This document shows, piece after piece, positions 4,024-44,402 of a stretch of 49,712 nt of DNA. The notes below the pieces were generated by a model. That model was not told the DNA's origin. It did not search any database and worked only from the letters and a program-made list of their open reading frames with translations. The translations under genes and the position numbers were made by a program. This stretch comes from Desulfosudis oleivorans (GTDB taxonomy: Bacteria > Desulfobacterota > Desulfobacteria > Desulfobacterales > SURF-7). Location: the NCBI GenBank assembly GCA_020723325.1, contig DYJD01000040.1:1-49712 (forward strand). The letters are read 5' to 3'. Every line of letters starts with the position of its first letter. Position 1 is the first letter of the stretch.

Positions 4024-5124
4024 ATGACGGACAACCCAATGGATCAGATAGCGTTTTTTGTAAACAAATTGAAAGCGCGATTCAGGTTTCCCAAACTGGA
4101 TTCCAAATCGGCGAGGCGCTTGAATATCCTGTTGTTCGGCGCAGCCCTTGCAATTATTTGCTTCAATCTTCTTCTCGTTTACGTGCATCCGGATGAATAC
4201 GGGATCAAGGTGGTCCGGGTGGGCCTGAACCGCGGCGTTCAAAAAGAGGTTTACCATGCCGGTCTCACTTTTGTTCTGCCCTTCGGGTTGCAGGAGATGT
4301 ATCGACTGCCCAAGGGTATCCAGGTGCTGGAACTGACCAATTTTCCCGAAACCGCTTCAGTAACGGCGCGGAAAGACCGCGCCGCCCACATTCAGACCTC
4401 GGACGGCTTTTTCGTGGACGTGGACGTCTCCATATTGTACCACATCAAGGACCCCTACCTGGTTTTTACAACCATCGGTCCTGGAACCCTTTTCGAAGAC
4501 AACGGCATCCTTCCCAAGGCCGAGCCGGCCCTTAAAGAGACCCTGGGAAAGTTGACCACCGAAGAATTCTACAACAGCCCCATGCGGGTTAAAAAAGCGG
4601 AAGAAGCCAAGCAGAACCTCAACACCGAATTAAAGGTCAAAGGCATCGAGGTCGACCAGGTGCTGGTACGTTATTTTATATACAGCCCGGAAATTCAGAA
4701 AAACATTGAGGCGAAAAAGCTCCAGGATCAGATGGTGTTTACCAACCAGTCGGCGGCGCGGGCGGCCAGGGAAGAGGCGGAGTTGAAAAAAATCATTCAG
4801 GAGGGAATGGTTATCGCCGCCGTGGAGATTGAAAACGGTAAAGCCTATGTCACCCGCAAGATCGCTGAGAAGGATCTATACGCGCGCAAGATAAAAGCCA
4901 ATGCCGACTTGCAGGTGAAGCTGGCCGAGGCGGAAAGGGTGCGTCTGAAAAATGAAGCCTTGAAAGGCATCGGTTCCGAGCGCATGGTTGCCCTGAAAAT
5001 GGCCGACGCCTACAAGGGGCTGGATATGATCATCCTGCCCAGTGACGGCCCCCACGGGGTCAACCCGTTGAGTCTGGATAATGCCCTACAGCTATTTGAT
5101 GTTCGTAAAGGAGGCAACCCATGA
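4024..5124 (+). CDS. SPFH/band-7 (prohibitin-like) membrane protein
   Basis: This 366-residue protein has a short cytoplasmic N-terminus and one membrane helix at about 36-54 (ILLFGAALAIICFNLLLVYV). The SPFH domain (about 55-230) includes GIKVVRVGLNRGVQKEVYHAGL and the GIEVDQVLVRYF strand. A charged coiled coil (about 230-330) rich in Ala, Glu and Lys follows. SPFH proteins build ring assemblies around membrane proteases and in lipid microdomains. It starts after TTAAGGAAAAAATACC and overlaps the next SPFH gene by 4 bp, so the pair probably forms a hetero-oligomer. FtsH two genes downstream fits the HflK/HflC-FtsH pairing known in bacteria. It is not close enough to call hflK. Confidence 0.88.
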   Translation: MTDNPMDQIAFFVNKLKARFRFPKLDSKSARRLNILLFGAALAIICFNLLLVYVHPDEYGIKVVRVGLNRGVQKEVYHAGLTFVLPFGLQEMYRLPKGIQVLELTNFPETASVTARKDRAAHIQTSDGFFVDVDVSILYHIKDPYLVFTTIGPGTLFEDNGILPKAEPALKETLGKLTTEEFYNSPMRVKKAEEAKQNLNTELKVKGIEVDQVLVRYFIYSPEIQKNIEAKKLQDQMVFTNQSAARAAREEAELKKIIQEGMVIAAVEIENGKAYVTRKIAEKDLYARKIKANADLQVKLAEAERVRLKNEALKGIGSERMVALKMADAYKGLDMIILPSDGPHGVNPLSLDNALQLFDVRKGGNP

Positions 5125-6149
5125 AACGATTAATGATCTCGACAGCTTTACTGCTGGCCGTCCTTACTTTGGCCGCCTGTGTTCCCCATACCACGGGTCT
5201 GACGGAAGTGGGCGTCAGAACCCGTAAAATGGCTTTTTGGGGACCGAAGGGGGTGGAGGAACGGATCTACGCTCCGGGTGGCACGTATTTTTTTCTGCCG
5301 TTTATCAATGACTGGCATGTGTTCGACACCAAACTGCAGAACTTGGAAATGACCTTTTCGAAAATGCGTGGCGACCGCAAGACCAGAGACGACCTGGTGT
5401 TTAAAACCATCGATGGCAACGACATCGGTCTGGATGTGATCATCGTCTATCGCATCGATGCGAACAAGGCCCCACACATACTCCAGTATGTTGCCCGGAA
5501 TGACGAAATTTTGCGGGGAACCATCGTGCGGACCGTGGCCCGCAGCAAACCCCGGGATATTTTCGGCGAACTGAAGACCGAGGCTTTTTATGTGGCGGAA
5601 GCCCGCGAGACCCAGTCCGGCAAGGCCCGCGAGGCGTTACAGGGAATTCTGGGGCCCATGGGTATCATCGTTGAGAAGGTGCTGACCAACGACTATCGTT
5701 TCAACACCGAATATACCAAGGCCATTGAGGACAAAAAAGTGGCTGATCAGCAGGTGGAAAAAAACAAATCGGCCCAGCACGCCGCCACCGAGGAATACAA
5801 ACGTAAATTGGAAGAAGCCAGGGGCGAAGTCAACCAAATGGTGGCCGATGCCGACGGTGAATATCTCAAGGCCAAGATCGAGGCGGATGTATACCGGGAG
5901 CAGCAAGTGCTTATTGCCCAGGCCATCCAGGCCGAGGGCTCTGCCGAAGCCGCCGCCATCCAGGAAATGAATCATGCCCTGGCAGGGGCCGGCGGCGAGG
6001 CCATCGTGAAGCTGAGAGTCGCGGAGGCGATTCAGGGAAAACGCATCCTATTGCTGCCGGTTTCAGAGGGTGGGATGAATCTCAAGACCACCGACATCAA
6101 CCGTTTGATCGAAACATTGGGCGTTAAATCGCTTTCCGGCGGGCAGTGA
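5121..6149 (+). CDS. SPFH-domain lipoprotein, partner of the preceding gene
   Basis: This 342-residue protein has a lipoprotein signal, MKRLMISTALLLAVLTLAAC, with Cys20 in the lipobox. The SPFH domain follows (GVRTRKMAFWGPKGVEERIY, YAPGGTYFFLPFI), then a long Glu/Ala-rich coiled coil (about 200-290). The ending LRVAEAIQGKRILLLPVSEGG parallels the preceding protein's MADAYKGLDMIILPSDG, so the two are likely paralogues. A lipid anchor in place of a membrane helix is uncommon for a prohibitin homologue and would put the protein outside the cytoplasmic membrane. The two genes are translationally coupled (ATGA overlap). Confidence 0.85.
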   Translation: MKRLMISTALLLAVLTLAACVPHTTGLTEVGVRTRKMAFWGPKGVEERIYAPGGTYFFLPFINDWHVFDTKLQNLEMTFSKMRGDRKTRDDLVFKTIDGNDIGLDVIIVYRIDANKAPHILQYVARNDEILRGTIVRTVARSKPRDIFGELKTEAFYVAEARETQSGKAREALQGILGPMGIIVEKVLTNDYRFNTEYTKAIEDKKVADQQVEKNKSAQHAATEEYKRKLEEARGEVNQMVADADGEYLKAKIEADVYREQQVLIAQAIQAEGSAEAAAIQEMNHALAGAGGEAIVKLRVAEAIQGKRILLLPVSEGGMNLKTTDINRLIETLGVKSLSGGQ

Positions 6150-6178
6150 CGGACGCATGGCCGGGGAAAGGCAACAAT

Positions 6179-6457
6179 ATGCAAAACAAAATAGAATCAA
6201 CCCATATCGATGAATTATTGGTTAAAGCGGATGAGCTTATTCAACAAATCAATTCCGATGCACTCAAAGACATGGAAGCAGAGCAGCGCCTGCAGTTTGA
6301 AAAACACGCTCAGAACTTGAAACAGATAAAATCCGTGGTGCGGGGCCAAATCAAGAAAAAAGGTATTCCGAAAAAAAGTTACGGCGCCAAAGGCTTTCAC
6401 GAGGCGATCCTGGATATTGTGAAGGCCATGCAGGACTTTAAAGACAAGCTGTTCTGA
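6179..6457 (+). CDS. Small helical protein of unknown function
   Basis: This 92-residue, highly charged, all-helical protein begins MQNKIESTHIDELLVKADEL. A GTG at 6146 could extend it by 11 residues with overlap of the SPFH gene. The ATG at 6179, preceded by GGGGAAAGG at good spacing, is the better start. No Cys, signal peptide or membrane helix is present. It has Lys-rich turns (GQIKKKGIPKKSYGAKGFHE). Its place between the SPFH pair and ftsH suggests a role in that complex, but I do not recognise the family. Confidence 0.7.
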   Translation: MQNKIESTHIDELLVKADELIQQINSDALKDMEAEQRLQFEKHAQNLKQIKSVVRGQIKKKGIPKKSYGAKGFHEAILDIVKAMQDFKDKLF

Positions 6458-6494
6458 TTGCCACTAAGCACCTTTGAATACTGGAAAATCAAAA

Positions 6495-8411
6495 ATGACT
6501 TTTTCTGAAAAAAAAGCGCCGCTGGAAAAATTAACGGACATGTTGCGTTCCTTTACGGGTCGGGAAGATCCCCGCAAAATAAAGAATGGCTTGCCTCCCA
6601 AGGCTCAATTCAACATCGGGTATGCCCTGGCGGCCATACTTTTATTTTTCTATGTGCAGCAACATTTTTTTTCCACAAAAGTGGAAATGATTCCCTACAG
6701 CCGGTTTAAAGAATACATCGTCGAAGGCAAGGTGGAGAAATTGACCATCTATCCAGAAAATATCAGCGGAAAGCTGGCAGGCTCTTCAGGCCGGGAGTTT
6801 GTCACCGTCCGTGTGAATGATCCCGACCTGGTGAAGGACCTGGATGAACATAAAATCAGTTATTCCGGACAGAACGAAAATAAATTTCTGAGCAGCCTTC
6901 TCTCCTGGATTATTCCTCTTGGCGTTTTTTTTCTGATCTCACGGTTTGCCATGAAAAAGATGGGCACCGGTATGGGGATCATGTCCTTCAGTAAGAACAA
7001 AGCCAAAATTTTTGCGGAGAGCGATACCAAAGTCTCTTTTACCGACGTGGCCGGAATCGATGAGGCCAAAGAAGAACTCCAGGAAGTAGTCGAATTTTTA
7101 AGAACCCCGCAAAAATTTCAGAAATTGGGGGGCCGGATACCCAAAGGCGTGCTGCTGGTCGGTCCGCCCGGAACCGGCAAAACCCTCCTGGCCAGAGCCG
7201 TGGCCGGTGAGGCCAAAGTGCCTTTTTTCAGCATCAGCGGGTCGGAGTTTGTGGAGATGTTTGTCGGGGTGGGAGCGGCCCGCGTTCGTGACCTTTTCTC
7301 TCAGGCCGCGCAGCAGGCGCCCTGTATCATCTTTATCGATGAACTGGATGCCCTGGGCAAAGCCCGGGGGATGAATATTATGGGCGGGCATGATGAACGC
7401 GAGCAAACGCTCAACCAGCTCCTGGTGGAGATGGATGGGTTCGAAACGAATAAAGGGGTCATCATCATGGCCGCCACCAATCGGCCGGAAATTTTGGATC
7501 CGGCTTTGTTGCGGCCGGGACGGTTTGATCGGCAGGTCCTGGTGGACCGGCCGGACATCAATGGGCGGGAAGCCATTTTGAAGATTCATTCCAAGAATGT
7601 GGTGCTTGGCTCCGAGGTCGATCTCCGCAAGATCGCCGGCCGCACTCCGGGCTTTGTGGGCGCGGACCTGGCCAACATCATCAATGAAGCCGCGTTGCTG
7701 GCTGCCCGCAATAATAAAGAGGTGGTGGAGCCGGTGGATTTTGATGAGGCCATCGACCGGGTGATTGCGGGTCTTCAAAAAAAGAACCGGGTAATGAATG
7801 CAATGGAGAGAGAGATTGTGGCTTTCCATGAGGCCGGACATGCCATCGTGGCCGAGTCGGTTGAGCATGCTGACCCGGTGCATAAGATTTCGATTATTCC
7901 CCGTGGGATTGCGGCCCTCGGATATACCCAACAGCAACCCACCGAGGATCGCTATTTAATGACGCGTTCGGAGTTGATCGATCGCCTGGCTGTGCTGTTG
8001 GGCGGCAGGGTGGCGGAGGAATTGGTTTTTAAAGAAATCTCGACCGGAGCCCAGAATGACCTGCAGCGGGCCTCGGACATTGCCCGGGCCATGGTCACGG
8101 AATACGGTATGAGCGACCGCCTGGGTCTGGTGAGCTATGAGCGCCAGCGCCGATCGATGTTTCTTCCGGAAAGTTTTTCCTCCGGTAAAAATTACAGTGA
8201 AGCAATCGGCGCCCAAATCGACGAAGAAGTCGGCCGGTTCATGCATGAAGCGCATCAAAGGGTGATTAAAATCCTCTCGGAGCGTCGGAACGTCCTGGAT
8301 GAGTTGGCCCAGCTCCTTTCACAGAAGGAAAGTGTGCAGGGAGAAGAGCTTAGAAAGATGTTGGCGGCCGCCGCTCCCGGAAAGGCGACTCCACCGCAAG
8401 CGATTGGGTGA
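6495..8411 (+). CDS. ftsH: ATP-dependent zinc metalloprotease FtsH
   Basis: This membrane-bound AAA+ protease degrades damaged membrane and regulatory proteins. There are two membrane helices (about 41-56 and 135-153). The AAA domain has Walker A GPPGTGKT (about 223-230), Walker [11 protein letters not shown] and the second region of homology with [21 protein letters not shown]. The zinc site HEAGHA is at about 445. A TTG at 6474 is possible, but the ATG at 6495 gives the conventional start. Length, about 638 residues, is normal. The residue pattern is complete, so the enzyme should be active. Placement with SPFH proteins and cardiolipin synthase marks it as a specialised stress copy; a housekeeping ftsH is probably elsewhere. 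Confidence 0.95.
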
Positions 8412-9613
8412 TGATGAAAAAGGACACGCCGGCCATGGCCCGCATGATTTCAAACAATCAAATCAGCCTGCTGCAAAACGGCGCAGCGTATTTCCCGGCC
8501 ATGGAAGCGGCGTTGGAGCGGGCGCAGCATGAAATTTATATAGAGAGCTATATTTTCAAAAATGACAATACCGGGCGGTGTATTGCGGAAGCACTCAAAC
8601 GAGCGGCTTTGCGTGGTGTGAAAACCCACCTGTTGATCGATGGATTCGGCTCCAGCGGTTTGCCGAAAAACATGCTCGACGCTCTTGAAGCAGCCGGCGT
8701 GATGGTGATGAAATTCCGGCCCAGGGTATCGCCTTGGACGCTGCGGCGCAAACGGCTGCGCCGCCTGCACCGGAAAATTGTGATGGTGGACCGGAAGATT
8801 GCGTTTGTGGGCGGCATCAATATCACCGATGACATGGATACGGCAGGTCAAACAACTCGTTATGACTGCGCTGTAAGCGTGGAAGGACCGCTGGTGGAAG
8901 AAATTCACCATTCGTCCCGCCGGGTGTGGTCACGGGTAGCATGGGCCCGCCGCCTGTGCGCTACCTGGAGACGGAACAACGATAACAAAAACGTTTCTTC
9001 AAAGGAATCCGGGGGCAATATGCGCTCGGCTTTTCTGATACGGGATAACATCCATCATCGCCGCGATATTGAGAATGCGTATTTGCGGGCGATTGAGCAG
9101 GCGCGATTCGAGATCATTCTGGCCAATGCCTACTTTTTGCCCGGATTAAATTTTCGGCATGCGCTTTTGGATGCGGCCGGGCGTGGTGTCCGAGTGATTC
9201 TGCTGCTGCAGGGAATGGTGGAATTTCCGTTGCTGCATTATGCCTCGCTTGCCTTGCGCGGCAGTTTTCTCGATGCCGGGATTGAGATCTACGAATACCA
9301 CAAGGGGATTCTGCACGCCAAAGTAGCGGTGATCGATGAGCATTGGGCCACGGTGGGATCATCAAATCTTGACCCTTTCAGTCTCCTGCTCGCACTCGAG
9401 GCAAATGTCGTTGTTGACGACGAAAACTTTGCCAAGACAGTAAAGCACAGCCTGGAGCAGGCCATGCATAGCGGGGCGCGGCGGATACTTCAAGGCAACT
9501 GGAGAATGCAGCCCATTCGCCTGCGTCTGATCAGTTGGCTGAGTTACGGCCTGGTTCGGTTCATGACCGGAATCGCAGGGTATGCTCCGGGGCAACATGC
9601 TGCCCAGCAATAA
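8411..9613 (+). CDS. Phospholipase D-family cardiolipin synthase
   Basis: This protein of about 400 residues has two HKD motifs: HRKIVMVD at about 120 followed by the GGINI strand, and HAKVAVID at about 302 followed by ATVGSSNLDPFS. That is the layout of ClsB-type cardiolipin/phosphatidyl transferases. It lacks N-terminal membrane helices, unlike ClsA. The start overlaps the ftsH stop (TGATG); a GTG at 8408 and an ATG at 8414 are alternatives. A role in remodelling membrane phospholipid fits the Mla-type transporter that follows. Substrate is inferred from the family only. Confidence 0.88.
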   Translation: MMKKDTPAMARMISNNQISLLQNGAAYFPAMEAALERAQHEIYIESYIFKNDNTGRCIAEALKRAALRGVKTHLLIDGFGSSGLPKNMLDALEAAGVMVMKFRPRVSPWTLRRKRLRRLHRKIVMVDRKIAFVGGINITDDMDTAGQTTRYDCAVSVEGPLVEEIHHSSRRVWSRVAWARRLCATWRRNNDNKNVSSKESGGNMRSAFLIRDNIHHRRDIENAYLRAIEQARFEIILANAYFLPGLNFRHALLDAAGRGVRVILLLQGMVEFPLLHYASLALRGSFLDAGIEIYEYHKGILHAKVAVIDEHWATVGSSNLDPFSLLLALEANVVVDDENFAKTVKHSLEQAMHSGARRILQGNWRMQPIRLRLISWLSYGLVRFMTGIAGYAPGQHAAQQ

Positions 9614-9647
9614 TCGGTCGACAACATAATCTTTAGGAATTTTAGCC

Positions 9648-10496
9648 ATGGTGCTTGATTCAAACAGTCCGCCCCTCCCCAAGAGAGAAGACGAATGGCG
9701 GCTCTTTACGTTTTTGTCGCGACCATTTGCCGTCTTAGGGAGAGGGGCGATCAACAGGGTCGATAACTTGGGTGCTGCTACCATTTTCCTTATTCTGGCA
9801 TTACTGAAGATCGCCAGCCCCAAGCAGTTATCCAAGATTGTCCAACAAATTTATTACATAGGGGCACGCTCCATGATGATCGTCATGCTCGTCGGCCTCT
9901 TCACCGGTATGGTTATAAGCCTCCAATTTTATTATGCATTGAATAAAGTCGGCGCTCAAGGTGCGCTCGGCACTTTGGTGGCTTTGACGCTGGTCAGGGA
10001 ACTGGGACCTGTTCTTGCAGCCATCATGATTGCCGCCAGGGCAGGGTCCGCCATCAGTTCAGAAATCGGCATTCAGCGTATTTCCGAGCAGATTGATGCG
10101 CTGTGCACCATGCGTATTGACCCGATTGGCTATCTCATCAGTCCAAGAATTGCCGCTGCCGTCATCAGCTTTCCCTTGCTCACCGCCCTGTTCGATCTCA
10201 TCGGCATCATCGGCGGGTATATCTCCGGAGTGCTGCTCCTGGGTGCGAATGCTGGTACTTATTTTTATCGTGTTCAAACCAGTTTGAACATGAAAGATGT
10301 TTCCGACGGTTTCATCAAGTCCATCGTTTTTGCCTTCATCGTCTCCACCGTTTGCTGCTTCCAGGGCTATTTCGTGCATATGCGCACGGATAGCCATGGG
10401 GCCAAGGCCGTCGGACTTGCCACTACCTCGGCTGTTGTCATCTCGTGTGTGCTTATTTTGGTATCGGACTATATTGTTACTTCCCTCCTGATGTAG
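9648..10496 (+). CDS. mlaE: MlaE-family lipid ABC transporter permease
   Basis: This 282-residue inner-membrane permease has the MlaE signature LTLVRELGPVLAAIMIAARAGSAISSEIG and five or so membrane helices. With the next two genes it forms a minimal MlaE-MlaF-MlaD set, which moves phospholipids between the inner membrane and the periplasmic carrier to keep outer-membrane asymmetry. No mlaC or mlaB follows, so other copies must supply those or the system works without them. The N-terminus is hydrophilic (REDEWRLFTFLSRPF). An ATG at 9648 follows a weak AGGAATTTTAGCC ribosome site. Confidence 0.9.
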   Translation: MVLDSNSPPLPKREDEWRLFTFLSRPFAVLGRGAINRVDNLGAATIFLILALLKIASPKQLSKIVQQIYYIGARSMMIVMLVGLFTGMVISLQFYYALNKVGAQGALGTLVALTLVRELGPVLAAIMIAARAGSAISSEIGIQRISEQIDALCTMRIDPIGYLISPRIAAAVISFPLLTALFDLIGIIGGYISGVLLLGANAGTYFYRVQTSLNMKDVSDGFIKSIVFAFIVSTVCCFQGYFVHMRTDSHGAKAVGLATTSAVVISCVLILVSDYIVTSLLM

Positions 10497-10504
10497 AGAG
10501 ACCT

Positions 10505-11749
10505 ATGGATACGCCATTGATTGAATTCAAGGATGTTACAAAGCGGTTCGGAAACAAAACTGTTCTCGAAGGTGTAAACCTCAAGATATACGAAGGGCAG
10601 GTCACGACTATCATCGGCCTGAGCGGTGGCGGCAAGAGCGTCCTTCTGAAACATATCGTCGGTCTGCTCGAACCCGACGAGGGAGCGATTCTTTTCCGGG
10701 ATAAACCCTTTGTCGAAATGAAAAAGCACGAGATGAACACCTTTTTTGCCCAGATGAGCTATATGTTTCAAGACAATGCTCTGTTCGACTCCATGACCGT
10801 TTACGAAAACATTGCACTGCCGCTTCGGGAAACAACGAGAAAAGGTAAGGCAGAAATAGACCGGATGGTTAAGGCCAGAATCGCGCAGACGGAACTGGGG
10901 GATGCCGCTGGCAAGTTCCCATCCGAACTCTCCGGCGGCATGCAGAAGCGGGTGGCTCTGGCACGGGCACTGGTTATCGATCCCCGGATAGTCCTTTTTG
11001 ACGAACCCACTTCCGGGCAGGACCCTGTCCGGAAAAATGCAATCCTGAGCATGATCGCTCAGTACCAGCGAAAATTTGGTTTTACCGCGGTGCTGGTCAG
11101 CCACGAGATTCCGGATGTGTATTTTATCTCCAATCGTATTCTTGCCCTCTATCATAAAAAAATCGTTTTTCAGGGCACTCCGGATGAGCTTGATAGATTC
11201 GATCACCCTTTCAAAGACGAGGTCATCATCAGCCTGGAAGGATTGCGGGATGAATTATCGGGTCTGCACACCAGGCGGTTGTTCAATGTCATGTATCATG
11301 CTCAGTTGAAGCATAAAAGCGTCGGTGACACCTATACCGTAACGGTTTTCACCCTGTATGTGCAGGAGGCCATTTTAGAAGGTTTGGGTTACGAAGAAGC
11401 ACAGGGGGTGATACATGCCATGGGGGTATACATCGATAAACACTTTGGCGCCATCGGAGGGTTTTCCACACGCCACAAGATCAATGAATTCGTGACGGTT
11501 CTCCCATATTCGAATCTGTTTGAGGCTGAAGAAATGGTGGCGTCATTTATAAAGGATTTCCAGGAGCGGGGAATTCGTGACATTCGGCTTGGGGGACGAA
11601 GACAAGGTTTTGTACTGGAAGGCATTGAGATCTCGATCCACGCCGGTTTTGCCCAGGGCCAACCCATAGCCGAATTAGACGCCGTCATCGAATCCGCCAA
11701 ATCTCAACAAAAAGAAATCGGCCGGATTCTGTGTTCCGCAAAGGAGTAA
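10505..11749 (+). CDS. mlaF: MlaF-type ABC ATPase fused to a degenerate GGDEF-like domain
   Basis: Residues about 1-245 are a normal lipid-ABC ATPase: Walker A GLSGGGKS, LSGGMQKRVALARAL, and Walker B VLFDEPTSGQDP. A frame open from 10445 would overlap mlaE; MDTPLIEFKDV at 10505 is the natural start. MlaF proteins are about 270 residues; this one is 414. The extra 165 residues (after GLRDELSGLHTRR) read like a GGDEF fold: TVTVFTLYVQEAI, INEFVTVLPYSNLFEAEEMV where GGDEFVVLLP would be, and EISIHAGFAQGQPIAELDAV where the VSIGVA strand would be. The GGDEF and metal residues are not conserved, so it would be a sensor or scaffold, not a cyclase. The ATPase call is firm; the second domain is my inference. 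Confidence 0.88.
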   Translation: MDTPLIEFKDVTKRFGNKTVLEGVNLKIYEGQVTTIIGLSGGGKSVLLKHIVGLLEPDEGAILFRDKPFVEMKKHEMNTFFAQMSYMFQDNALFDSMTVYENIALPLRETTRKGKAEIDRMVKARIAQTELGDAAGKFPSELSGGMQKRVALARALVIDPRIVLFDEPTSGQDPVRKNAILSMIAQYQRKFGFTAVLVSHEIPDVYFISNRILALYHKKIVFQGTPDELDRFDHPFKDEVIISLEGLRDELSGLHTRRLFNVMYHAQLKHKSVGDTYTVTVFTLYVQEAILEGLGYEEAQGVIHAMGVYIDKHFGAIGGFSTRHKINEFVTVLPYSNLFEAEEMVASFIKDFQERGIRDIRLGGRRQGFVLEGIEISIHAGFAQGQPIAELDAVIESAKSQQKEIGRILCSAKE

Positions 11750-11753
11750 ATCC

Positions 11754-12209
11754 ATGAAAAAGTACGCAATAGAAACCACAGTTGGAATTTTTATCGTTTT
11801 CGGCCTGCTGGGTATCAGCTACATGACAATCACTTTCGGTCATGTTCCTTTTCTGGGCGATAATTCCTACCCTATTTCCGCTCGTTTTACCACGGTAACC
11901 GGTTTGAGAGTCGGCAGTCTTGTCTATATAACAGGCATTGAGGTCGGACGCGTGGAAAGACTCGCCATCGATCAGAAAAAACAGAAAAGCGTGGTGGAAA
12001 TGAGGATTCATAAGGGTATCGAAATTTACGATGATGCCATCGCTTCCATTAAAACCGAAGGACTGATCGGCGATATGCATATCAGCATAGACCCCGGCGG
12101 AGGCGGCGATCTCCTGAAAGAAGGAGGCATCATCACTGAGACGATATCGCCTCTGGATATCGCCGACCTTGTCAGTAAGTATGTCTTCGGTGATATCAAG
12201 CGCCCTTAG
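11754..12209 (+). CDS. mlaD: MlaD-type MCE-domain lipid-binding protein
   Basis: This 151-residue protein has one N-terminal membrane helix (TTVGIFIVFGLLGISYMTI) and a single MCE domain (FTTVTGLRVGSLVYITGIEVGRVERLAI, then IKTEGLIGDMHISIDPG). MlaD forms a periplasmic hexamer on MlaE that passes lipids to a carrier. It is the last gene of operon A, 5 bp after mlaF. No strong terminator is visible in the gene-free 540 bp that follow, which hold the operon B control elements. Confidence 0.9.
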   Translation: MKKYAIETTVGIFIVFGLLGISYMTITFGHVPFLGDNSYPISARFTTVTGLRVGSLVYITGIEVGRVERLAIDQKKQKSVVEMRIHKGIEIYDDAIASIKTEGLIGDMHISIDPGGGGDLLKEGGIITETISPLDIADLVSKYVFGDIKRP

Positions 12210-38584: not shown

Positions 38585-40852
38585 CTACTTATTTCCCGGC
38601 CCCCTTATAAGCACACCCAATCCGGCCTCCACAAGCGCTGCATTCAGCAGATCGACAATGTCGGTTTCGTTCTCCACCGTCAGCGCCTTTTCGGAAAGTC
38701 CGCGAGCTTGCTGTTTGGTAAAGCTGCGGATGGTCCATTTGACACGCGGAAGATAAGATGGGTTCATGCTCAAGGAATCAACACCCATACCTAACAATAA
38801 GAGGGCGGAGGCCGGATCGCCAGCCATTTCACCGCACACACCGACGGTTTTCTTGCAGCGATGCGCCCGTGCCACGATATCATGGACAACATGAATTACA
38901 GCCGGATGAAGGTTGTCGTAAAAACCCTGGACCCGTGGATTGTTTCTATCCACCGCCAGCAGGTATTGGGTAAGATCATTTGTTCCGATGGAGAAGAAAT
39001 CCACGCGTTCCGACAACGCGGCAATTGAATATACGGCTGAAGGCACTTCGATCATGGCGCCCAAGCGGGGTTTTAGCGCCGGCCGGCCTTCCATCATCAA
39101 CTCCTGATAGGCGCGTTCTAACAGATCGATGGTCTGATCGATTTCGCTGATTCTGCTGATCATGGGAAAAATGACTTGCAGGTTGTGAAGCCCGAAATTG
39201 GCGCGCAGCAAAGCCCGCAACTGCGTTATAAATATTTCGGGATGGTCCAAAGTAAAGCGAATCCCGCGCAGGCCGAGAAAGGGATTGGCTTCGTTAATAA
39301 AAAAGAACGGCAGGGCCTTGTCGGCACCTGTATCGAGCGTGCGAATCGTCACCGGTTTGGGCGCAAAGGTTTCAAGCAGATTGCGGTACAGACGATACTG
39401 CTCGTTCTCTGTGGGAAGGGTTTCACGCGATAAAAAGAAAAATTCCGTGCGGTACAGACCCACACCTTCATAATCCCCGGCGCTTGTCGAAAAATCATCG
39501 GCGTCGATCCCCAGATTCACATGCAGGGGAATTCGGACCCCATCCCCGGTTTCGGCTGGCAAATCTTTAAGTGTCTCGAGTCGGGCGGAGATGGCCTGTT
39601 CTTCTATCATGCGTTGCTTGAATTCAATCCAATCCCCGGCTGAGGGATTAATACAGACAATCCCTTTGTCACCGTCGGCAATGACTTCGCAGCCCTCTAA
39701 ATAAGCGATGGGAAGATCGCCCAGCCCCATAACGGCGGGAATTCCGAGTGCGCGTGCTACTATCGCAATATGGGATAAGGTCGAACCGTTGCTGCAGATG
39801 ATGCCGACCAGCAAGTCCCGGGGTACCCCTGAAATTTCAGCCAGGCTGAGATCCGCGCCCGCCAAAATGCATTGCTTTGGATACTTGCCGGAAGGAGGAA
39901 TGTTTTCCTGCAAATGGCTTAGAATATGCCGGCCGACATTGCGAATATCTTCCGCCTTAGCGGCGATATAAGGGTCATCAATACGTTGAAAGATTTGCAC
40001 TAATTCTAGAACGGTGTCGCTTAAAGCGCCTCGCGCCCATTGTCCGGCGCGAATTCGTGCAATCGTTCCTGAATTTAGTTTGTCGGAATCAAGCATTAAT
40101 ACCGTAACATCGAACAGTGCGAGAACTTCGCCGGGCAGGTCGGGGCGCATGCGTTCGCGGCTTGATAGTAATTCCTGCTTCGCCGCGGCGACGGCGGCCC
40201 GGAAGGCCGCCTCTTCCATGTCGATGTCAAGCGCTGGATAGTCCGGTGTGGATTGCAGATCGGCGGGTTGGGCCAGGGTAATGACGCCGCTGGTGATTCC
40301 GGGCGCGCATGAAATCCCGCGGACAACCATCCGCCCAAGCGACGAGCCGATCAATTGCCGACCCACATCCCATTTTACCAGAAGGTGGTTCACGGCACCG
40401 CCGAGTTGAGTCGCCAGGGTAATAAAAAAGGCCGTCTCGTTATCGTCGAATCGTCGCTTTTCAATCTTCCGCGCCACCAGTATGGCCAATACCCGGCGGT
40501 GATGAATTATGGGAGCGCCGAGAAAGGCTTGAAAGCCCTCCGCTGCAATCTCCAGACTATGGTGAAAACCGGGATGATCGGCAGGGCTCGCGAGATTGAC
40601 GGCTTCCTCATGCGCCGCAATCCAGTCCACCAGTCCATCTTGCTGCCTCATCCGTGCTTTCCCGAAGGCGTCGGTAATCAAGCCGTCCGCCGTCAGTAAT
40701 TGATAATGGCCGGTTTCCGCATCTCTCAGATAGCAAGCGCATGCGTCCGACGAAATGGTGGTATTAATCCTTCCGACAATCAACGTGAGCGCATCTCCCA
40801 GACGGGATGCGGCGTTGACTTCTTGTATGATTCGACGGACGTGATTCAACAT
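38585..40852 (-). CDS. ptsP: PtsP-type enzyme I (GAF domain plus PEP phosphotransferase)
   Basis: This 755-residue protein has a GAF sensor (about 15-165; SDACACYLRDAETGHYQLLT), an enzyme I phospho-His domain with the active His361 in STLSHIAIVARALGIPAVMG, and a PEP-binding barrel with RTEFFFLSRETLPTENEQ, GLRGIRFTLDHPE, IGTNDLTQYLLAVDRN and the active Cys in VGVCGEMAGDP. All catalytic residues are present. PtsP takes phosphate from PEP and passes it to HPr/NPr and EIIA-Ntr; neither partner is in this window. The start overlaps the GGDEF gene end by 89 bp, but the N-terminus matches family starts, so the overlap looks real. Confidence 0.9.
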   Translation of the reverse strand: MLNHVRRIIQEVNAASRLGDALTLIVGRINTTISSDACACYLRDAETGHYQLLTADGLITDAFGKARMRQQDGLVDWIAAHEEAVNLASPADHPGFHHSLEIAAEGFQAFLGAPIIHHRRVLAILVARKIEKRRFDDNETAFFITLATQLGGAVNHLLVKWDVGRQLIGSSLGRMVVRGISCAPGITSGVITLAQPADLQSTPDYPALDIDMEEAAFRAAVAAAKQELLSSRERMRPDLPGEVLALFDVTVLMLDSDKLNSGTIARIRAGQWARGALSDTVLELVQIFQRIDDPYIAAKAEDIRNVGRHILSHLQENIPPSGKYPKQCILAGADLSLAEISGVPRDLLVGIICSNGSTLSHIAIVARALGIPAVMGLGDLPIAYLEGCEVIADGDKGIVCINPSAGDWIEFKQRMIEEQAISARLETLKDLPAETGDGVRIPLHVNLGIDADDFSTSAGDYEGVGLYRTEFFFLSRETLPTENEQYRLYRNLLETFAPKPVTIRTLDTGADKALPFFFINEANPFLGLRGIRFTLDHPEIFITQLRALLRANFGLHNLQVIFPMISRISEIDQTIDLLERAYQELMMEGRPALKPRLGAMIEVPSAVYSIAALSERVDFFSIGTNDLTQYLLAVDRNNPRVQGFYDNLHPAVIHVVHDIVARAHRCKKTVGVCGEMAGDPASALLLLGMGVDSLSMNPSYLPRVKWTIRSFTKQQARGLSEKALTVENETDIVDLLNAALVEAGLGVLIRGPGNK

Positions 40853-41837
40853 GATGGGTTTTTTTCTTTCGCTTTTGTTTGTACATTAATTTGTCGCCTT
40901 GAACTATTAACTCGGAAATGGAGGAATCGGATTCAGGGTCGTAGTAGGCGATACCGACACTCAACGTGAGCTTATAGCCCTGATTGCTTTTCAGGTTGTA
41001 AATTTCGATGGCCTTCTGCAGACGGGTGATGATCTTTGCGGTGCAATCACCGGCGATTCCCACCGGGAAAACCACGAACTCATCACCGCCGATCCGGGCG
41101 ATGATATCGGACTCCCGATAATGCTCGCGGAGCACTCCGGCGACAGCAACCAAGGCTTTGTCCCCTTCTGAATGCCCCGCCGTGTCATTAATGGTTTTTA
41201 ACTGGTCAAGGTCGACATACAACATGTAAAGCCCTTTTTTTTGTCGTTTCGCGATTTTAAGCAACTTGTTTCCCAACGTAAAGAGTCCGCGCCTGTTGAA
41301 AAGACCCGTAAGCTCGTCCGTGATCGATATGGAGATGAGCTTTTTCTCCAAGCGCACCCGTTCCGTGATATCTTCAATCGCCAGAAGAATCATTTGGTTG
41401 TCGATGGCTTGGTGATAAACCCGGCGGGCGTTGAGCATCATCACTTTTTGGCCGATGACTGCAAAACGATGTTCAACCTTAAAACCTTCGAACTTATGAT
41501 TTTTCGGAATAATATTCTCCAGCAGCAAGCGCAGTCGTGGAATATTCCATTGCCGGTTCCCGAGATCATAAAGATAACTCCCGATGGTTTCGGTGGGCGT
41601 CACTCTGAAAACAGTATAAAAAGAGCGGTTGGCGAATAGTATCGTCAGGTCTGAACTCAGCACCAGAATCGGTTCGCGCATTGTTTCCAAAATGCATTCC
41701 GCAAATTTTGGTGTTCTGTCATTCCGTGCTTCCGCGCGATTGTCTTGGGATTCTGTTTTTTCCAATAACACAATTCTGCGGCGCAATTCGGTCAATTCAC
41801 TTATCAGTAGACTTTTTGTTTTGCGCTGATCTTTCAT
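40764..41837 (-). CDS. PAS-GGDEF diguanylate cyclase
   Basis: This 357-residue cytoplasmic protein has a helical start and a PAS domain (about 55-165), then a GGDEF domain (about 175-335) with an intact active site IGGDEFVVF at about 250-254 and DLDQLKTINDTAGHSEGDKA. No RxxD inhibitory site is obvious. It should make cyclic di-GMP. The PAS shares LYDLGNRQWNIPRLRLLLEN, FKVEHRF and MLNARRVY with the PAS of the sigma-54 activator at 42942-44402 (LYDLGNRQWDIPKLRELLEE in register), so both probably sense the same signal. It is the fourth gene of operon D. Confidence 0.9.
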   Translation of the reverse strand: MKDQRKTKSLLISELTELRRRIVLLEKTESQDNRAEARNDRTPKFAECILETMREPILVLSSDLTILFANRSFYTVFRVTPTETIGSYLYDLGNRQWNIPRLRLLLENIIPKNHKFEGFKVEHRFAVIGQKVMMLNARRVYHQAIDNQMILLAIEDITERVRLEKKLISISITDELTGLFNRRGLFTLGNKLLKIAKRQKKGLYMLYVDLDQLKTINDTAGHSEGDKALVAVAGVLREHYRESDIIARIGGDEFVVFPVGIAGDCTAKIITRLQKAIEIYNLKSNQGYKLTLSVGIAYYDPESDSSISELIVQGDKLMYKQKRKKKTHHVESRPSNHTRSQRRIPSGRCAHVDCRKD

Positions 41838-41857
41838 TTCAACTTAATACGAAACCG

Positions 41858-41977
41858 TCAAATTTTCTTTTTTTTGTCTTTGCTTGTCGGCAATGCCGAG
41901 TAATAAATGATTATCCCGGCAAGAATTATCAAGAGCAGCCATACATACATCCCCCAATATAAATAAATCATCATCAT
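41858..41977 (-). CDS. 39-residue single-helix membrane peptide
   Basis: The minus strand encodes MMMIYLYWGMYVWLLLIILA, then GIIIYYSALPTSKDKKKKI and a stop. One long hydrophobic helix (about 4-26) is followed by a Lys-rich tail, which predicts the C-terminus inside. A strong AAGGAGAA ribosome site lies 3 bp from the first of three ATGs (41977, 41974, 41971); the second is best spaced. It lies within operon D between the ABM-domain gene and the GGDEF gene. No family is recognised. The ribosome site and clean membrane pattern make it likely real. Confidence 0.65.
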   Translation of the reverse strand: MMMIYLYWGMYVWLLLIILAGIIIYYSALPTSKDKKKKI

Positions 41978-42029
41978 TTATTCTCCTTGAAAATTTTCGC
42001 CGGATCATTGCCTTTCGGTACAGGCCTGA

Positions 42030-42365
42030 TTACTGCTGGAGCCCTTTTCCGCGCACGGCATGGACGGCTTCCTGCCCTTCCGATTGGTGGATGGTGTAAA
42101 TATTGATTTCATGCGGCTCGTTGAGAAGGCTCTTGGTCCCCAGTAGAACGCTGAACATTTCAGATTGTAAATGATGATCCAAATCCTTGCGTGTTCGCCA
42201 CTCCTCAAGCAGTGTCAAGAGATTCTGATCCTCGATGTCGCAAAAGAGGGCGTAGCTCATGCAACCGGTTTCCTTTTTCATCGGCCCCATCATGGAAAGG
42301 ACCGTTTGCACCAGCTCTTTCTGTTTTTCCGAAAGCACGTTCATGGTGATTCTGACGATGATCAT
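42030..42365 (-). CDS. Antibiotic-biosynthesis-monooxygenase (ABM)-fold protein
   Basis: This protein of about 111 residues begins MIIVRITMNVLSEKQKELVQ, with the ABM ferredoxin-like pattern GCMSYALFCDIEDQNLLTLLEEWRTRKDLDHHLQS. A GTG at 42374 is possible; GGGAGG before the ATG at 42365 favours the shorter form. ABM-fold proteins are quinol or haem monooxygenases or small sensors of electrophiles. The catalytic class cannot be told. It is the second gene of operon D, 34 bp behind the KH gene. Confidence 0.8.
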   Translation of the reverse strand: MIIVRITMNVLSEKQKELVQTVLSMMGPMKKETGCMSYALFCDIEDQNLLTLLEEWRTRKDLDHHLQSEMFSVLLGTKSLLNEPHEINIYTIHQSEGQEAVHAVRGKGLQQ

Positions 42366-42399
42366 TGCGGCCACCTCCCGGCAATGCCTGATTTTTTAA

Positions 42400-42630
42400 T
42401 TATTCGATGATTTCGAGCACCGTTCGTTTTTTGGACTTGGCGGAAACTGCGTTTAAAAGGGTCCGCAGCGCGCACACGGTCCGGCCCTGTTTGCCGATTA
42501 TTTTGCCTATGTCTGTTTGGGCGACCCTGAGTTCCAGTATTGACGTGTACATTCCTCCGATTTCGGTAATGGATACCACATTCGGTTTGTCAACCAGTGC
42601 TCGTGCAATGATTTCAACTAGTTGTTTCAT
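42400..42630 (-). CDS. KH-domain RNA-binding protein (KhpA-like)
   Basis: This 76-residue single KH domain is MKQLVEIIARALVDKPNVVS, then DIGKIIGKQGRTVCALRTLL with the GxxG loop as GKQG, then KKRTVLEIIE. That is the size and shape of KhpA, which binds RNA alone or with KhpB. The usual khpA is in a ribosomal operon (rpsP-rimM); this is an extra copy. A strong AGAGGAGGCGTTCC precedes it. As first gene of operon D it would be the direct target of site D, which points to post-transcriptional control within the stress programme. Confidence 0.88.
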   Translation of the reverse strand: MKQLVEIIARALVDKPNVVSITEIGGMYTSILELRVAQTDIGKIIGKQGRTVCALRTLLNAVSAKSKKRTVLEIIE

Positions 42631-42726
42631 GGAACGCCTCCTCTGCGGCCGTGGTTTGAAGGCATGGGGAACGGAGCTGGTTACTCCGGCCTGAAAAGCA
42701 TGCCTTTATTTGCTGCTTTTTATATA

Positions 42727-42742
42727 ATCAAACTTCATGCCG
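42727..42742 (-). promoter_or_regulatory. Sigma-54 promoter for operon D
   Basis: On the minus strand CGGCAT (42742-42737), GAAGT, TTGAT (42731-42727). The -24 GG and -12 GA have the same spacing as in the other three promoters. The predicted start near 42716 leaves a leader of about 86 bp before the KH gene. The gene-free sequence 42631-42941 holds this promoter, the operator and a hairpin. Confidence 0.7.
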
Positions 42743-42840
42743 GATTTCCAACGCCGCTTTTTTTATTGCATCGTTATGAATTTATAAACAAAATTATTTA
42801 ATGAAGGGGGCAATCCCAATGCAGGCAGCGAAATCGGCAA

Positions 42841-42871
42841 GGTCATATTCAACCACTGGTCATATATAACC
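42841..42871 (-). promoter_or_regulatory. Tandem-palindrome operator (site D)
   Basis: Given on the plus strand: GGTCATATTCAACC (42841-42854), ACT, GGTCATATATAACC (42858-42871). It is 98 bp upstream, on the minus strand, of the operon D promoter. It lies between the activator gene's stop and the KH gene. The geometry is the same as at sites A-C. Confidence 0.78.
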
Positions 42872-42895
42872 CTGTTTTGAGGGGGCGAATTACAC

Positions 42896-42922
42896 TCAAA
42901 GTCTGATGATCATGGACTTTGA
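42896..42922 (-). terminator. Hairpin after the sigma-54 activator gene
   Basis: TCAAAGTC (42896-42903) pairs with GACTTTGA (42915-42922) across 11 bp, 20 bp after the activator's stop. No T-run follows on the minus strand, so termination would be weak or factor-dependent. It may separate the activator transcript from operon D. Confidence 0.35.
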
Positions 42923-42941
42923 ATGGTGCGGAAACCAGGCC

Positions 42942-44402
42942 TCACGGTTTTTGAATATCGAGCTTGCGTATGCGGGCGCGCAAAGTGCTGCGGTCAAGAC
43001 CCAGGATCTCGGCGGCACTGTTCTTACCGCTCACTTTCCACTGTGTTTGCTCCAGTACCTTGATAATGTACTCCCGTTCAACATCCTGCAGGGTTCGTTC
43101 AGCCCTTGCTGAATCTTTTGCTGGCGTTTTCAGGTCGTCCACCAGACGCAGTTTGGGTCCCGAGGAGTTGATTACCGCCCGTTCAAGGACATTTTCCAGT
43201 TCCCGGATATTGCCGGGCCAATGGTATTTTTGCAGCGTATCCATAACGCCCGCCGGGACCACGTCTATGGCTTTGCCTAGTCTCTTTGAGATTTTATCAA
43301 TATAAAATTTCACCAGCAGGGGAATATCGCCCACCCGATTCCGGAGCGGCGGCATCGTAATCGGGAAAATATTCAGCCGATACCAGAGATCCTCGCGGAA
43401 TCGGCCTTTGCGGACTTCCTCTTCGAGATTTCGATTTGTGGCCGCGATGATTCTCACATCGACCTTGATTGTATCCGAACTGCCCAAACGCTCAAACTCA
43501 CCGCTCTGTATCACCTGGAGCAGTTTCGGCTGCAATTCCAGGGGTAGTTCGCCGATTTCATCCAGAAAGAGGGTGGCGCCGTCGGCAACCTCAAATCGTC
43601 CCAACCGCTTGGTTTGAGCACCGGTGAAAGCGCCTTTCTCGTGGCCGAACAGCTCGCTTTCAATCAGATTTGAAGGCAGGGTGGCGCAATTCATTTTTAC
43701 CAGCGCCCGATTCTTGCGTGGACTAAGTCCATGAATGGCTCGGGCCACCAGTTCCTTACCGGTTCCGGTTTCGCCCAGAACCAAGACGTTCGTACCCGTG
43801 CCGGCGATTTGTTGAATCTTATAAAACACATAATTGATTTCGTTGCTTTGACCGATGATGTTTTCATGGTCGAATTCCAGTTTGATTTCTTCCTGGAGAT
43901 AGGCTCTTTCAGCATCCAACTGTTCTTTTAACTTTTTTATTTCGAGAAGGGCTGTTTCCGCCTCTTCCCTGGCTTGGGTGAGTTCGACTGTTCGATTTTC
44001 AACCAATTCCTGAAGATGTCTTTTATAATATTCACGCTCGGTCACATCCTCGATGGCCAGGAGGATCAGTTGGGTCTGGCTTAACTCTCTGTAGACCCGC
44101 CTGGCGTTTAAATGCATTATCTTTCGACCGATGGTTTCAAAAGTATGCTCCACTTCAAAATTATTAAACATGGAATTTTGCGGCAGGATCTCTTCAAGCA
44201 ATTCCCTAAGCTTGGGGATATCCCATTGCCGGTTGCCTAGATCATATATTATTACGCCCTGTGTCTCTTCAGGTATGACTTTGAAGGTGCTATAAAAGGA
44301 ATGGTTGGCGCTTACAACTTTCAGATCGGAATCAAGCAGCAATAGGGGTTCTCGAATTGAACCCATTATGCTGTTTAGAACCTCAAAAAAAATTTTCGGC
44401 AT
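42942..44402 (-). CDS. PAS-sensing sigma-54 activator (enhancer-binding protein)
   Basis: This 486-residue transcription activator has a PAS domain (about 8-120), a coiled-coil linker (about 125-180) and a central AAA+ domain (about 185-420) with Walker A GETGTGKE (about 210), the sigma-54 contact loop GAFTGA (about 257) and ATLFLDEIGELPLELQPKLLQ. A C-terminal Fis-type helix-turn-helix follows (ILGLDRSTLRARIRKLDI). No receiver domain is present, so it senses through PAS and not by phosphorylation. The GAFTGA loop is intact, so it should drive sigma-54 promoters. It is the only such regulator in the window and adjoins site D, making it the natural candidate to bind all four operators. No site of this type precedes its own gene. 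Confidence 0.92.
   Translation of the reverse strand: MPKIFFEVLNSIMGSIREPLLLLDSDLKVVSANHSFYSTFKVIPEETQGVIIYDLGNRQWDIPKLRELLEEILPQNSMFNNFEVEHTFETIGRKIMHLNARRVYRELSQTQLILLAIEDVTEREYYKRHLQELVENRTVELTQAREEAETALLEIKKLKEQLDAERAYLQEEIKLEFDHENIIGQSNEINYVFYKIQQIAGTGTNVLVLGETGTGKELVARAIHGLSPRKNRALVKMNCATLPSNLIESELFGHEKGAFTGAQTKRLGRFEVADGATLFLDEIGELPLELQPKLLQVIQSGEFERLGSSDTIKVDVRIIAATNRNLEEEVRKGRFREDLWYRLNIFPITMPPLRNRVGDIPLLVKFYIDKISKRLGKAIDVVPAGVMDTLQKYHWPGNIRELENVLERAVINSSGPKLRLVDDLKTPAKDSARAERTLQDVEREYIIKVLEQTQWKVSGKNSAAEILGLDRSTLRARIRKLDIQKP

Follow-up and report, generated by a model that had tools for sequence, protein, structure and literature searches.

The MlaF ATPase encoded in the 49,712-nucleotide stretch of DNA analysed here (the window) carries a C-terminal tail domain that is homologous to GGDEF diguanylate cyclases. 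The tail matches GGDEF structures in its predicted fold, has lost the catalytic residues, is under purifying selection, and recurs beside mlaE and mlaD in many genomes. The fusion of MlaF to a degenerate GGDEF-like domain had been proposed in the initial annotation, which placed the domain at 11252-11749. The domain itself was borne out by family profile and predicted fold, which agree; its start lies slightly upstream, as Pfam places the start of its match at residue 248 (about 11246).

The mlaE-mlaF-mlaD locus and the identity of the MlaF tail

The mlaF gene (10505..11749, 414 aa) encodes an ABC ATPase followed by the degenerate GGDEF-like domain of about 165 residues (11246..11746, plus strand). 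The gene lies 8 bp from the end of mlaE, which encodes a 282-aa permease (9648..10496; Pfam MlaE, 3.6e-75) on which no STAS fusion was seen. It lies 4 bp from the start of mlaD, which encodes a 151-aa MCE-domain protein (11754..12209; Pfam MlaD, 2.7e-18; NCBIfam OM_asym_MlaD, 4.1e-37), and all three genes are on the plus strand. The nucleotide-binding domain (NBD) covers residues 1-234 (10505..11206, plus strand), with Pfam ABC_tran matching residues 21-170 (2.2e-32) and NCBIfam MlaF matching residues 4-233. The top NCBIfam match, MlaF PRK11831, scores 186.2 bits against an equivalog cut-off of 441. This indicates an MlaF-like ATPase and not an equivalog of the E. coli type. The product is nevertheless an ABC ATPase with adjoining MlaE and MlaD, by which MlaF is recognised. 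Home-made profiles for MlaC and MlaA, built from two sequences and one sequence, gave no match in the window, and with these profiles mlaE, mlaF and mlaD are the only Mla genes recognised there. The full E. coli-type partner set, with MlaC, MlaA and MlaB in the locus, was not found. Promoter and terminator scans gave 5 promoter-like and 7 terminator-like sites, with 6.3 and 5.7 expected, and were uninformative.

Upstream of mlaE and on the same strand, the region 4024-9613 holds two SPFH/Band 7 (HflK/HflC-like) genes, an FtsH protease gene, and a phospholipase-D/cardiolipin-synthase-like gene. This gene set forms a membrane quality-control and lipid neighbourhood.

The window sequence by itself was not decisive for the identity of the tail, because both of its Pfam GGDEF matches, at E 0.0087 for the whole protein and 0.0018 for residues 235-414, were below the gathering score (18.5 bits for the window copy, cut-off 23.8). 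A PDB search with the window domain as a single sequence returned nothing useful, and NCBIfam gave no match to the tail domain alone up to E 0.1. The family resolves the question. Pfam GGDEF was matched by all 13 homologous tail domains scanned singly, with a best value of 3.2e-20, and the cut-off was passed by L048, which is the closest relative (26.8 bits), and by the second copy in the same genome (54 bits). A 13-row profile was built from the window and 12 loci, all within ABC-ATPase reading frames. Against the PDB, this profile matched 48 distinct sequences at E<=0.01, mostly titled GGDEF or diguanylate cyclase, with DgcR at the top (8.8e-20). Further proteins in the genomes of the order matched the profile at E 1e-20 to 1e-22. 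All six that were opened are canonical GGEEF proteins that match Pfam GGDEF at 2.4e-39 or better and have no ABC signature or part.

Structure prediction with a fold search had been suggested as a check, and it led to the same family. The predicted domain model, from a 65-row alignment, has a pLDDT of 77.7 and a pTM of 0.78. The matches listed by Foldseek (best 1.3e-7) and by VIA-align (161 residues aligned at Z up to 15.8 and rmsd 3.7) are GGDEF-containing proteins, as judged in part from their titles. The full-length MlaF model is less confident (pLDDT 70.8, pTM 0.50) and has a similar order of elements. In this model a predicted helix, residues 237-252 (11213..11260, plus strand), joins the ATPase to the tail, with pLDDT below 50 from residue 246. 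Chance resemblance to GGDEF is ruled out by the family profile and the predicted fold together. The tail shares family-level homology and predicted fold with the GGDEF domain PF00990 (DgcR 6zxm, DgcB 6tts, SadC 4wxo).

Lost catalysis and two subfamilies of the tail

The elements of the GGDEF fold follow in register along the tail, all on the plus strand. KINEF (11477..11491) occupies the position of GG[D/E]EF, whose signature is lost, and EISIHAGFAQ (11627..11656) is the later strand of the fold. This register had been read correctly in the initial annotation. Its inventory overlooked an N-terminal element of the tail domain, DELSGLHTRRLF (from 11249), which resembles DxLTGLxNRRxF, the N-terminal hallmark of GGDEF domains. 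Within it, DELSGL (11249..11266) is the counterpart of the DxLTGL motif. AIGG (11450..11461) stands at the position of the inhibitory site (RxxD), so that the window reads AxxG where RxxD is lost.

An alignment was made of 171 distinct tail domains, of which L193 was mis-aligned and left out, leaving 170 usable rows. They were first split by the pattern at the site, into a GG[FILV][ST]xR type (group A, 111 rows, one of them the window copy) and rows with an alignment gap before the site (group B, 56 rows). The remaining three are L173, which has GxxG and was kept out of the group B counts, and L010 and L213, which have neither pattern. When the site and the N-terminal motif were masked and the 170 rows clustered, the 111 group A rows together with L173 and L010 separated from the 56 group B rows with L213. 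The masked clustering thus recovers the pattern-based split, apart from the three odd rows. The tail of L173 (genome G611) is intermediate, with GTTG and SQNEI; it joins group A once the site is masked, and in the ATPase tree it is a neighbour of this group with a support of 89.

The absence of catalytic residues, also claimed initially, holds for the whole family. GG[D/E]EF is found in none of the 170 usable rows, and an active diguanylate cyclase is ruled out. The window has T at the position of the metal-binding Asp and Q at that of the guanine-binding Asp. The first position is T or S in 87 of 111 group A rows and T in 47 of 56 group B rows; the second is Q in 100/111 and 51/56, respectively. 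Since these replacements are common to both groups, they are as would be expected if catalysis had been lost before groups A and B parted. The LTG of the N-terminal hallmark is largely kept (T in 104/111 of group A and 45/56 of group B; G in 110/111 and 52/56). Compared with PF00990, the tails are fused to a transporter ATPase and are without GG[D/E]EF, the metal Asp and the guanine-binding Asp, and group A is also without the inhibitory site.

The inhibitory site separates the two groups. RxxD is kept in 41 of the 56 group B rows, its D in all 56, and K or R is found at +31 in 42 of the 56, 31 of these among the 41 RxxD rows. In group A, RxxD is found in 0/111 rows and D or E at +31 in 85/111. 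This group has a new conserved stretch, GGFSxR-like, whose constant GG and R are partly by construction because the group was defined by the site pattern. It also has P at +18 from the site start in 111/111, with F (110/111) and H (108/111) just before.

These counts bear on the suggestion that the window copy is a cyclic di-GMP receptor in which binding at the inhibitory site gates lipid transport. GGDEF ancestry speaks for such a receptor, as do the 41/56 RxxD rows in sister group B, with a basic residue at +31 in 31 of these 41, and the reported degenerate GGDEF receptors PelD and SgmT. The AxxG of the window, the 0/111 count for RxxD in group A and its acidic residue at +31 (85/111) speak against it. 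With the canonical inhibitory site gone in group A, binding of cyclic di-GMP there is unlikely for the window copy, and the earlier proposal of such binding is weakened. We consider this receptor quite improbable. Cyclic di-GMP binding by group B, judged from its kept motif, is plausible.

Recurrence, constraint and comparison with domain-less operons

A profile search for the same fusion in other Mla operons had also been suggested, and the fusion proved to be recurrent. An initial search of 59 genomes, including the window's own, gave matches in 12, again with its own included. At the level of the order, 124 matches at E<=2.5e-24 were found in 98 of 242 genomes, 21 of which have at least two. 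The 124 were opened in part; they include a few short frames, and the search may have passed over fusions of greater divergence. One of those opened, L025, is a frame of 256 aa that lacks the ATPase signature. MlaE was found in 220 of the 242 genomes and in all 98 with a profile match. In a sample of the phylum, a match at E<=1e-25 was present in 50 of 395 genomes. In the named collection, the tail domain was present in all of the best 80 of 438 related stretches, which by title are mostly Syntrophaceae, Smithella, Syntrophus and unclassified deltaproteobacterial assemblies. A tblastn search of the plasmid collection with the tail domain gave no match.

At 60 of 80 group A loci, mlaE, mlaF with the domain, mlaD, mlaC and mlaA stand in this order; the remaining 20 differ in their gene sets or show incomplete ones, and several of them sit at contig ends. 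Among the group B regions opened, mlaE and mlaD adjoin the fusion in 38/41. Tail-bearing MlaF proteins without a recognised MlaE or MlaD beside them were also observed: L135 (G039 C21), L203 (G179), and a second copy in L093 at about 8625-9977, near the end of the locus. These three are possible orphan ATPases.

The genome of the window has one group A and one group B fusion, each with its own MlaE, and these two are its only MlaE matches. The second operon, mlaE-mlaF(group B)-mlaD-mlaC-mlaA, lies at L128:8692-12633 (G000 contig C64, minus strand), and the inhibitory site of its MlaF is RIID.

The window is one whole contig (C72) of an assembly with an estimated contamination of 2.25%. In the ATPase tree, its MlaF groups with Syntrophaceae sequences, and the genomes of the same family (n=11) gave no match to the window domain at E<=0.01. 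The nearest relative, L048, is outside the window's order and within the same phylum. Tetranucleotide correlation was 0.81 with about 50 kb drawn from the genome's other contigs and 0.76 with a 43 kb Syntrophaceae mix. Horizontal transfer or mis-binning of the contig is possible. The fusion finding is independent of the origin of the window, because the fusion is present in many genomes.

For comparison, 20 regions were selected by hand among those MlaE hits that have no co-located fusion match. Five of them (L216-L220) have STAS fused to MlaE (frames of 379-403 aa) and a short, tail-less MlaF; in 14 (L222-L235) the MlaE lacks STAS and the MlaF lacks the tail domain; and one is MlaE alone at a contig end. 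The domain-less MlaF operons are otherwise similar to the fusion operons.

These regions bear on the view that the tail replaces MlaB, standing in for the STAS subunit by which E. coli MlaF is stabilised. It is favoured by the genome itself, whose STAS_2 matches fall on neither Mla contig, by the short MlaF in all five STAS-fused MlaE systems opened, and by the point at which the tail joins, which by eye is where the MlaB-binding tail of E. coli begins. However, the stretch examined around the 14 domain-less operons L222-L235 showed no STAS gene either, so that no swap is needed and the tail is not a simple substitute for MlaB. The Mla system of Veillonella likewise has no MlaB counterpart, according to a part of PMC10665443. 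In addition, a STAS ORF lies near the fusion, on the opposite strand, in two of the 41 group B regions (L206 and L210), and the STAS and GGDEF folds differ. A simple MlaB substitute is weakened by these data, and replacement of MlaB appears unlikely.

A quick tree of the ATPase part was built with 74 rows (23 of group A, 31 of group B including L173, and 20 domain-less), with no root inferred; of its 69 inner branches, 16 are starred and 36 open. Group A is set apart by one branch (97, starred), and all fusions together with 10 domain-less MlaF fall in one starred set (99). The presence and absence of the domain require 6 changes on this tree. The pattern fits one gain of the domain followed by several losses, as read from an unrooted tree with many open branches. 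The domain-less MlaF proteins inside the fusion set end soon after the ATPase. Since they lie inside this set and their operons are otherwise similar, the domain is dispensable in some lineages.

Selection was measured on 114 close pairs, of which 10 were unusable, with L078 and L120 left out beforehand. Over the 104 usable pairs, the domain had a median dN/dS of 0.22 and the ATPase one of 0.07; between the window and L048 the values were 0.31 and 0.09. The largest value, 3.8, belongs to a pair with dS near 0. The domain is under purifying selection, with a constraint looser than that on the ATPase and a dN/dS about three times higher. A decaying, functionless leftover of the fusion would agree with the loss of catalysis, the faster evolution of the domain relative to the ATPase, and the domain-less relatives in the same tree set. 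A dN/dS around 0.2 and the many near-invariant positions over 111 group A rows, in a domain found through many families, argue against it and make it very improbable.

A possible regulatory role in lipid transport

The reading we favour, with modest confidence, is that the tail is a dimerising or regulatory module of the MlaF ATPase. A GGDEF domain would have been fused to the C-terminal end of an ancestral MlaF; after the loss of its catalytic residues, it would have been retained as a regulatory module. The reading draws on analogy with other tails at the same end of the protein. As stated in a passage of PMC7367683, the tail of E. coli MlaF forms an inter-subunit handshake that wraps round the neighbouring subunit, its deletion abolishes function, and dimerisation by GCN4 restores function partly. 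The paper also gives the general view that C-terminal domains in other ABC ATPases work through the way in which the NBDs associate. In the fusion proteins, the two tail domains of an MlaF dimer would pair via the linker helix, and the paired tails would favour or restrain association of the two NBDs. This association would then set ATPase activity and phospholipid transport via MlaE and MlaD. In group B the switch would probably be cyclic di-GMP at the kept inhibitory site. The group A tails, that of the window among them, may act as a constitutive dimerising clamp or respond to another ligand or partner through the new conserved motif.

A broader and more tentative possibility is direct second-messenger control of inter-membrane phospholipid transport in a large part of the phylum. 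The group B MlaF would be a dead-cyclase sensor of cyclic di-GMP, and the derived group A branch of the window would have been adapted to some other ligand or partner. A single cell could then run two Mla pumps under different signals. A tail derived from a cyclic di-GMP enzyme, with the motif kept in one branch and lost in another, makes second-messenger control of outer-membrane lipid balance testable. Control of the levels of active MlaB is termed an open question in a section of PMC7367683.

Several known systems resemble parts of this arrangement. The window shares with E. coli MlaF/MlaFEDB the ABC ATPase with the SGGM signature and the adjoining MlaE and MlaD. It differs in having the domain of about 165 residues and no STAS match on the contig, whereas E. 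coli MlaF has a handshake tail of about 25 residues together with MlaB, according to part of PMC7367683. The tails of MetN, ModC and MalK are likewise C-terminal on the NBD and are proposed to act on NBD association, but have ferredoxin-like or TOBE folds, unlike the GGDEF-like tail. PelD and SgmT are likewise reported to reuse an inactive GGDEF domain for regulation. Group B mostly keeps their binding motif; the group of the window has lost it, and the output would be a lipid-transport ATPase. Residues 467-582 of PDB 8qj3, in a chain named ammonium transporter, match the profile at 1.4e-11, in a different transporter class. The passage of PMC7367683 on a survey of 379 ABC structures names no GGDEF domain, and the GGDEF-like tail would be an extra domain type among known ABC ATPase regulators.

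The initial annotation knew of no described MlaF with such a domain, which agrees with the literature searches. No published MlaF-GGDEF fusion was found in full-text searches, as judged by titles and the openings of abstracts and with most subscription journals lying outside their scope, and GGDEF is absent from the main text of the phylogenomic Mla paper PMC10665443. The same annotation had also described the fusion as the neighbour of a cyclase that shares its regulon. This is not supported: the cyclase is a PAS-GGDEF gene (40764-41837, minus strand) that lies 29 kb away on the other strand, and a partner cyclase next door was rejected. Its product is the only other window ORF reported by the profile (19.1 bits). 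The GGDEF motif of this gene is intact. In its region (38585-44402, minus strand), it is flanked by a gene that its translation suggests to be phosphotransferase enzyme I-like, and by a PAS sigma-54 activator, and both the PAS-GGDEF gene and the activator match PAS_4.
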